Of a stretch of DNA of 59,718 bases, positions 16,491-56,571 are shown one piece after another. A model generated the notes under the pieces. The model saw only the letters and a list, made by a program, of their open reading frames with translations, was not told the DNA's origin and ran no database searches. The position numbers were made by a program, and so were the translations under genes. How positions within the stretch are numbered: the stretch's first letter is position 1; each line of letters opens with the position of its first letter. The stretch comes from Promethearchaeota archaeon (lineage in GTDB: Archaea; Asgardarchaeota; Thorarchaeia; Thorarchaeales; Thorarchaeaceae), in assembly GCA_027031765.1 (NCBI GenBank), contig JALVPN010000217.1:1-59718 (forward strand). The letters are read 5' to 3'.

Positions 16491-16598
16491 TGGTGGGCCG
16501 GACGAGATTTGAACTCGCGATCCCTTGGACCCAAACCAAGGATCAGTTTGGTGGGGCCATGGACACGCAGCCCCAATACCAAGCTAGACCACCGACCC
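16491..16598 (-). tRNA. tRNA-Pro (TGG) with a 31-base D-loop intron
   Basis: The mature tRNA has acceptor GGGTCGG/CCGGCCC, anticodon arm CTTGG-TTTGGGT-CCAAG (anticodon TGG), T arm GCGAG-TTCAAAT-CTCGT, discriminator A and encoded CCA. An extra 31 bases (plus-strand 16546-16576) sit after A21 in the D-loop. Around them a bulge-helix-bulge folds perfectly: central helix UUGG/CCAA, inner helix UGGGGC/GCCCCA, bulges UAU and ACU cut after their second base. Removal gives AGCTTGGTA-TGAT and a 77-base tRNA. A TATA box (GTTAAATT, 16629-16636, minus strand) lies upstream. Confidence 0.93.
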
Positions 16599-23055: not shown

Positions 23056-23219
23056 TGGTGGGGACGGGGAGATACGTCCCGTCGGCGGAACACGCCAGAC
23101 GTTTGAACTCCCGACCGACGAGTGTCTTCGTAGGCGACTTCCAGGATGACCCACGCCTTCGAACACGCAGAGTGTTCAGATCTGGAGCCCGTCGCCATAC
23201 CGGACTAGGCCACGTCCCC
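23056..23219 (-). tRNA. tRNA-Trp (CCA) with two introns: canonical 37/38 and T-loop
   Basis: Exons are 23182-23219, 23103-23123 and 23056-23073 on the minus strand. The spliced 77-base tRNA has acceptor GGGGACG/CGTCCCC, anticodon arm ACGGG-CTCCAGA-CTCGT (anticodon CCA), T arm GGGAG-TTCAAAT-CTCCC, discriminator A and encoded CCA. Intron 1 (58 bases, 23124-23181) sits at the canonical 37/38 site. Intron 2 (29 bases, 23074-23102) splits the T-loop between A58 and A59. It shows a perfect bulge-helix-bulge: central helix GUUC/GGAC, inner helix CGUC/GACG, bulges AAA and GUA cut after the second base. I see no clear C/D boxes in intron 1. Confidence 0.93.
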
Positions 23220-23345: not shown

Positions 23346-24325
23346 ATGACGGGACGCAGGGGGGTCGTGGTCGTGCTTGCGCTCTTTGTACTGAACGTAT
23401 TGGTCATATCCACGGCCGCTCGTACCACAGGCCCTGATGGGCGGGCAGGCGTATCACCGGCCCTACAGTATCAGGAGTGGACGAGTTTGTCTATCATGTG
23501 GTCTTTTGTTTCTCAGATGGCACAGAAGCGTTCAGAGTCCGTGCCAGAGTGAACATTGTATATGTGCACCAGAACCGTCACCCGACCATCAGTGCCCACT
23601 ATGTGTCCGTCTTGCTGGGAGTGTACTATGCACACACCCCGCTGGGGCGCCCGGTGCTGAGAGGCGTGGACTGTGAGGAGCTGTCGTTCTATCCGGTCTG
23701 GCTGGACTCGGCGGGGTACATGCATGACACAGCAGATGAGGAGGTGGTGTCCGTCAACGGGAGCATCCCAGATGGGGAGATGTTCGTTGGGACGGCACTG
23801 GTCGACCCCTTTGCAGTGTCGAACATTGTGATAATGATTGGTGGGGCCTTTGTGTTTAGAGGGCTCACACTCGTCCTGGCTGATGGGACGTCAGTCAGGG
23901 TCACCGACGGGAGGATTGTCGTGTCCGTGGAGAAGTGGTTCAATGACGACCGGCCCCTTGCCGGCAACCTCTCCGGCGTTGACCTAGAATATTCATCCGA
24001 TAGCAGACAGCTCACCGTGGCCCTCAAGGTGGCAGCACCGGCACTTACAGTTGTGGACTCGGTCATTGCGGCAGGGGGACTATTGGGCGTAGTAGTCATC
24101 ATACTCACGTTGATACTCTATAGGCGCGGGCACATCGAGCACCTGCCGTTGATACCGTGGCACAGATCACAGACGTGTCAGCCCACGACGACGACAGGCA
24201 GTACGGAGCAGACGAAGTGCCAAGAGCCGTCGCCGACGCACCTAGAGCAACCTTTAAAACTCCATGGAGATGTGAGAGGACTTGATGGCGGCCATAGGCG
24301 TCGGGGTTCACCTGATCTCTGCTGA
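23346..24325 (+). pseudogene. Frameshifted secreted/membrane-anchored protein gene
   Basis: The front part (ATG 23346, after a GGAGGT site) encodes a signal peptide, GVVVVLALFVLNVLVIS. Its frame continues only to 23552. The body of the protein is in another frame, open from about 23437 to 24325: extracellular beta-rich sequence (VDEFVYHVVFCFSDGTEAF onward) and a C-terminal transmembrane helix (LLGVVVIILTLILY) with a polar tail. Neither half makes sense alone, so a single-base indel between about 23437 and 23477 is likely: a real frameshift, a sequencing error or, less likely, recoding. The second frame also runs about 40 bases into the 5S rRNA gene, so the 3' end may be disturbed too. No family recognised. 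Confidence 0.6.
24253..24260 (+). promoter_or_regulatory. TATA box for 5S rRNA
   Basis: TTTAAAAC preceded by CC, about 27 bases before the predicted 5S start. Confidence 0.6.
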
Positions 24326-24403
24326 ACTCAGAAGTTAAGCCCGATGCCGTCAGGGAAAATGTGCGGTGCGCGAGCCCGTGACAAGTCCCTGAGCTGCCAC
24401 ATC
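24284..24403 (+). rRNA. rrf: 5S ribosomal RNA
   Basis: About 120 bases with conserved 5S elements: GGCGGCCATAG near the 5' end, the loop-B/C region CTGAACTCAGAAGTTAAGCCC, and a 3' strand GCTGCC pairing back to the 5' end (GATGGC with GCC-AC-ATC, two bases bulged). A T-rich stretch follows. Ends are estimated from pairing and may be a few bases off. No 16S, 23S or tRNA is adjacent, so the gene is unlinked from the rRNA operon. Confidence 0.9.
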
Positions 24404-37387: not shown

Positions 37388-37495
37388 GCCCCAGTAGCTC
37401 AGACAGGTTAGATCGCCTCCTTGGTAAGGAGGAAGATGCGACCTGATTTCCAGATTGCAGCCGAATCGCGGGTTCAAATCCCGCCTGGGGCTCCA
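37388..37495 (+). tRNA. tRNA-Thr (GGT) with a 30-base variable-loop intron
   Basis: Acceptor GCCCCAG/CTGGGGC, anticodon arm CCTCC-TTGGTAA-GGAGG (anticodon GGT), T arm GCGGG-TTCAAAT-CCCGC, discriminator T, encoded CCA. Thirty bases (37436-37465) interrupt the variable loop; removing them leaves a normal five-base loop AAGTC. The intron forms a nine-pair hairpin with one mismatch (UGCGACCUG with CAGAUUGCA), and both cuts fall after the second base of 3-base bulges (AGA, AAU), four bases apart as expected. The central helix has only two of four pairs. The D-stem has an odd C11-U24 mismatch. Confidence 0.9.
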
Positions 37496-56461: not shown

Positions 56462-56571
56462 AGCGGGTTGGGGAAGCCAGAAGACGATTGGACTGCCCAT
56501 CGTCTGCCGAAGTCTATCCCGCGGGGCTCATAACCCCGAGATCAGTGGTTCAAATCCACTACCCGCTACCA
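56462..56571 (+). tRNA. Initiator tRNA-Met (CAT) with a 31-base D-loop intron
   Basis: Acceptor AGCGGGT/ACCCGCT, anticodon arm CGGGG-CTCATAA-CCCCG with the three G-C pairs typical of initiators, T arm AGTGG-TTCAAAT-CCACT, discriminator A, encoded CCA. The D-loop is interrupted by 31 bases (56481-56511). Removing them gives AGCCAGGTCTA with the invariant GG and A21. The intron has a seven-pair hairpin (AGACGAU with AUCGUCU). Both cuts fall after the second base of 3-base bulges (AGA and AAG), four bases apart as expected; the four-base central helix is imperfect. A cut at 56508 is also possible but leaves a 14-base loop. Confidence 0.88.

Follow-up and report, generated by a model that had tools for sequence, protein, structure and literature searches.

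A probable bulge-helix-bulge intron in the T-loop of a Thorarchaeia tRNA-Trp gene and its counterparts in other Asgard archaea

The T-loop of the tRNA-Trp(CCA) gene described here, which lies in a 59,718-nt stretch of DNA (the window) from a Thorarchaeia genome, is interrupted by 29 nt between A58 and A59. We consider it highly probable that this insert (23074-23102, reverse strand) is a protein-spliced archaeal tRNA intron with bulge-helix-bulge (BHB) junctions in an essential, apparently single-copy tRNA-Trp, that it would be cut out by an EndA of the (alpha-beta)2 type with subsequent joining of the exons by RtcB, and that it would be one member of a large set found across Asgard archaea, whose introns of about 30 nt interrupt the T-loop in two registers, 58/59 and 59/60. 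The features of the gene are collected in Table 1.

Table 1. Features of the tRNA-Trp gene (window positions).
Feature	Position	Strand	Basis
tRNA-Trp(CCA) gene, 164-nt pre-tRNA, CCA encoded, two introns	23056..23219	-	genome search; ARAGORN on spliced forms
5' exon, nt 1-37	23182..23219	-	ARAGORN
37/38 intron, 58 nt; sequence and structure conserved in other Thorarchaeia-like genomes	23124..23181	-	
Middle exon, nt 38-58	23103..23123	-	ARAGORN
T-loop intron at 58/59, 29 nt	23074..23102	-	
BHB central helix, exon strand G53UUC56	23105..23108	-	register common to 41/97 T-loop introns
BHB central helix, intron strand GGAC	23076..23079	-	
Inner intron hairpin CGUC...GACG, directly after the 5' bulge	23080..23101	-	register-specific pairing in related set
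3' exon, nt 59 to CCA	23056..23073	-	ARAGORN

The insert, read as the reverse complement, is ACGTCTGGCGTGTTCCGCCGACGGGACGT (29 nt), and it is flanked by TTCAA (end 23103) and ATCTCCC (start 23073). No tRNA is called by ARAGORN in the unspliced gene. Removal of the T-loop insert alone suffices for a call of tRNA-Trp(cca) with a 58-nt intron, and with both introns removed a complete tRNA is restored, as a clean 77-nt tRNA-Trp(CCA) is returned. A preliminary description made from the letters alone had placed a 29-base insert between A58 and A59, and its coordinates are exact; that a 58-base 37/38 intron makes two excisions necessary, and that cutting after the second bulge base restores TTCAAAT, is borne out by the calls on the partly and fully spliced forms. 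Position 58/59 lies outside 37/38 and is thus non-canonical. An Rfam tRNA scan gave a sub-threshold partial match to the locus (13.5 bits) because of the introns, and an unconstrained fold of the whole precursor was not tRNA-like and uninformative. The 37/38 intron is in itself remarkably well conserved within the family: a GGGTCA stretch is invariant, and the hairpin of the intron has compensated pairs in Thorarchaeia-like relatives. By eye, neither a strict BHB, which is why we treat this intron as relaxed, nor convincing C/D-box motifs were evident in it, and it may have a second role.

At the junctions of the T-loop intron, exon GUUC is complementary to intron GGAC, the bulges are AA^A and GU^A, and the inner helix consists of CGUC and GACG. 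This 4-bp helix between two 3-nt bulges is strict BHB geometry, and among 20,000 dinucleotide-shuffled versions of the intron only 0.145% reach it. Two reservations apply to the BHB earlier called textbook: the 3-nt bulge on the 3' side requires a slipped T-stem (A52-U60, G51-C61, G50-U62, and G49-C63), and RNAfold does not return the BHB as the minimum for the isolated T-arm but prefers to keep the T-stem intact and to form another helix within the intron, at -18.7 kcal/mol versus -16.3 or -14.9 kcal/mol for the BHB forms. As the isolated arm folds slightly better with the intact T-stem, it is probably the enzyme that captures the BHB form. That many different tRNAs have kept this geometry outweighs the minimum-energy fold of an isolated arm.

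In the proposed pathway, G53-C56 of the exon would pair in the precursor with the GGAC close to the intron's 3' end, resulting in the 4-bp helix with a 3-nt bulge on each side, and an (alpha-beta)2 splicing endonuclease would cut each bulge after its second base. The excision would be independent of that of the 37/38 intron, and ligation by RtcB would restore TTCAAAT. The genome contains an RtcB gene and two EndA genes. The catalytic EndA alpha (contig C38), whose gene runs off the contig end so that its N-terminus is not covered there, possesses the Y, H, K triad and an equivalent of K44, which we take to be the loop lysine of the literature; in an alignment of 28 sequences, neither K44 nor the triad varies. 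The second protein, EndA beta, has neither the triad histidine nor the loop. Among solved structures, the best match of EndA alpha is the EndA of Aeropyrum pernix (E 2e-33), an enzyme in which the loop lysine is needed for broad specificity (PMC6379350). Judged by their sequences, the two EndA genes match the crenarchaeal-type (alpha-beta)2 enzyme of the broad-specificity kind, and the subunits would be expected to assemble accordingly. The relaxed-specificity EndA that the preliminary description had called for, with the architecture to be classified, is therefore plausibly present in the same genome.

A tRNA-Trp with two introns could also be a decayed pseudogene, with another tRNA-Trp doing its work, and a second copy might be missing from an assembly that is a draft of 2.95 Mb in 229 contigs with 95% completeness. 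A DNA search with the whole precursor nevertheless found one tRNA-Trp in this genome, and the other strong matches were the 3' halves of tRNA-Pro and tRNA-Tyr, which have similar T-loop inserts. Of 44 tRNA genes counted from searches and targeted stretches, a count that may be incomplete, a single one has the anticodon CCA. On the basis of the single precursor match and the single CCA anticodon, this copy is unlikely to be a pseudogene, and as all its arms are intact and 10 other tRNAs of the genome have like inserts, we give decay hardly any weight. A second complete tRNA-Trp gene, which had been named beforehand as the observation that would speak for a pseudogene, was looked for in the 95%-complete genome and none was found.

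T-loop inserts are present in 11 of the 44 tRNA genes (Trp, Pro-TGG, Tyr, Asn, Lys-TTT, Thr-CGT, Leu-TAA, Ser-GCT, Arg-CCT, Arg-TCT, and Phe), and they extend far beyond this genome. A covariance model (R1) matched T-arms in all 39 Asgard-phylum genomes, and among the matches listed, the T-arm is interrupted (about 50-60 nt versus 28 nt when plain) in at least 34 of the 39, the exceptions among these matches being G014, G025, G029, G031, and G034. In the control, each of the two Methanomicrobiales genomes yielded a single weak match to a plain T-arm and none of intron length, which is a soft control because tRNAs there score low with the model in general; Aenigmatarchaeota gave two matches, of 64 and 44 nt. 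The intron of tRNA-Trp, at first regarded as exceptional, is thus real but not unique, as T-loop introns are common across Asgard archaea.

In tRNA-Trp itself, a T-loop intron was found in seven genomes (G000, G007, G009, G010, G011, G019, and G021), and it is absent from most other family members. Empty sites are seen in G017, a congener of G007, in G020, a congener of G010, and in Thorarchaeota SMTZ1-45, which has several T-loop introns elsewhere, for example in tRNA-Pro. Gain or loss of tRNA-Trp T-loop introns has been frequent. The fibrillarin encoded near our tRNA-Trp gene is 58% identical to that of SMTZ1-45, by far its best named match, and in SMTZ1-45 the tRNA-Trp gene also adjoins the fibrillarin gene, with the 37/38 intron present and the T-loop uninterrupted; this one protein and the synteny support the Asgard-like affiliation that had been suggested. 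Introns of about 30 nt also occur at 53/54, the border of T-stem and T-loop, in tRNA-Trp of G008 and G018 and in another tRNA of SMTZ1-45.

For the analysis of the registers, 31 genomes provided 97 distinct T-loop inserts. A 4-bp helix with G53-C56 and a cut at 58/59 (class I, to which the tRNA-Trp intron belongs) is possible in 41 of the 97 versus 4.2 in shuffles, a class favoured by the search because R1 was built with this first register; a 4-bp helix with U54-A57 and a cut at 59/60 (class II) is possible in 40 versus 3.9 in shuffles, and this register was not part of R1. Either register is present in 81 of the 97 inserts compared with about 8 expected, and 16, including 4 of the 11 of this genome, strictly fit neither. 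The two classes differ at the junction, as base 59 is A in 38/41 class I but in only 21/40 class II introns (P = 5e-5), as would follow from a class II cut one base further on. Base 52 is A in 25/41 class I versus 7/40 class II introns and would allow A52-U60 in the slipped stem. This is only suggestive, as the stem could slip by two pairs about equally well in either class when wobbles are included (33/41 and 30/40). The inner helix of 30-nt introns of either class is paired to 88% in the predicted register and to 30-45% one or two positions away from it, and CG, GC, AT, and TA occur as compensating pair types at the same place. In 483 of 485 cases, the two sides of the insert pair as a T-stem.

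These data also bear on the idea that the insert is never spliced but persists in mature tRNA, where it would enlarge the T-loop as a hairpin. In favour of this, the predicted fold allows the intron hairpin to stack on the T-stem in a single stable arm. An intact T-loop is, however, needed for contact with the D-loop in tRNA, close relatives have a plain T-loop, and both registers keep exact BHB geometry with class-specific junction bases. We therefore regard retention as very improbable and splicing as by far the better explanation.

As to the origin of the spliced introns, their uniformity has to be considered. The insert length is 29-31 nt in 96 of 99 cases, a uniformity that the search model could favour, and the 7 tRNA-Trp T-loop introns from a model-independent search with the 5' exon are also about 29-31 nt long. 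An AYTTC motif is present in 31 of the 97 inserts versus 7.9 expected. It is mostly apical, and in either register its place is base 11 counted from the cut. The near-fixed length of 29-30 nt and the apical AYUUC-type loop recur among relatives in T-loop introns of different tRNAs and genera and of both registers. It is conceivable, and we propose it tentatively as a reading with somewhat less than even prospects, that the Asgard T-loop introns are one family of fixed design, with 29-30 nt, an AYUUC-type apical loop from base 11 after the 5' cut, and two registers one base apart. If this is true, it would point to a common origin or to a loop recognised by EndA or an RNA-binding protein, and not to independent random insertions. 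Splicing is also compatible with an intron that recently copied itself between the tRNAs of this genome, as proposed for Thermoproteales. The likeness of the Trp, Pro, and Tyr introns, the patchy presence within the genera g8 and g11, and the shared apical motif would fit such an event, but the introns of different tRNAs are only a little more similar within genomes (mean score 0.153) than between genomes (0.131; P = 0.02), and this slight excess supports recent copying weakly; we consider it unlikely.

Heavy interruption of tRNA genes at sites other than the anticodon loop thus reaches Thorarchaeia and most of the Asgard families searched, alongside an EndA alpha with the crenarchaeal specificity loop. 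Given the widespread T-loop introns and this EndA, splicing in the archaeal relatives of eukaryotes seems to be of broad specificity, unlike that by the eukaryotic enzyme, which is largely limited to 37/38. Many sites are filled in one genome and empty in a close relative, so that gain and loss of introns can be tested directly. Standard finders miss interrupted genes (the window has at least 6 tRNAs, and ARAGORN reports 2), and the annotated tRNA sets of Asgard archaea are therefore probably incomplete. In the window, a tRNA-Thr(GGT) gene with a 37/38 intron (37388-37495, +) is missed by ARAGORN, as is a tRNA-Met(CAT)-like gene with a D-arm insert (56462-56571, +) that is also below the Rfam cut-off. 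A D-arm insert of about 33 nt is found in tRNA-Pro(GGG) (16491-16598, -), with a similar one in tRNA-Pro(CGG) elsewhere in the genome, and a 5S rRNA gene (24284-24402, +; Rfam, 58.8 bits) lies near the tRNA-Trp gene.

The kind of intron is known, and the Thorarchaeia examples and the two-register design appear to be unreported. The preliminary description knew of no account from an Asgard-like lineage, which no longer holds: a 2024 report on Atabeyarchaeia and Freyarchaeia found introns in 92-95% of their tRNA genes, with non-canonical positions being frequent (PMC11291895). Other reports of tRNA introns or of the splicing endonuclease in Thorarchaeota or Asgard archaea were not found in the open-access literature. 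The Asgard tRNAs described in the 2024 report also have several introns each, many of them outside 37/38, whereas our genome belongs to another Asgard class. Introns at non-canonical T-arm positions have been described in Thermoproteales, among others (PMC4090602, PMC6379350). In Thermoproteales, BHB introns of the T-arm occur for example at 56/57 and 59/60 (Sugahara 2008 and Fujishima 2010, reviewed in PMC4090602), a 37/38 intron can be present in the same gene, and the EndA is of the (alpha-beta)2 type. T-arm and 37/38 introns are likewise combined in our gene, and the same EndA type is predicted from the sequences; the Asgard archaea are a different phylum, and their T-loop introns differ in being concentrated at 58/59 and 59/60, with near-fixed length and a shared apical loop. 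Outside Thermoproteales, Caldiarchaeum subterraneum similarly has introns in the D-, V-, and T-arms, for which a recombinase-bearing mobile element has been proposed (PMC3293823). The (alpha-beta)2 EndA of Aeropyrum pernix (PDB 3p1z, 3ajv) has the same loop with the K44 equivalent and the same triad as our EndA alpha.
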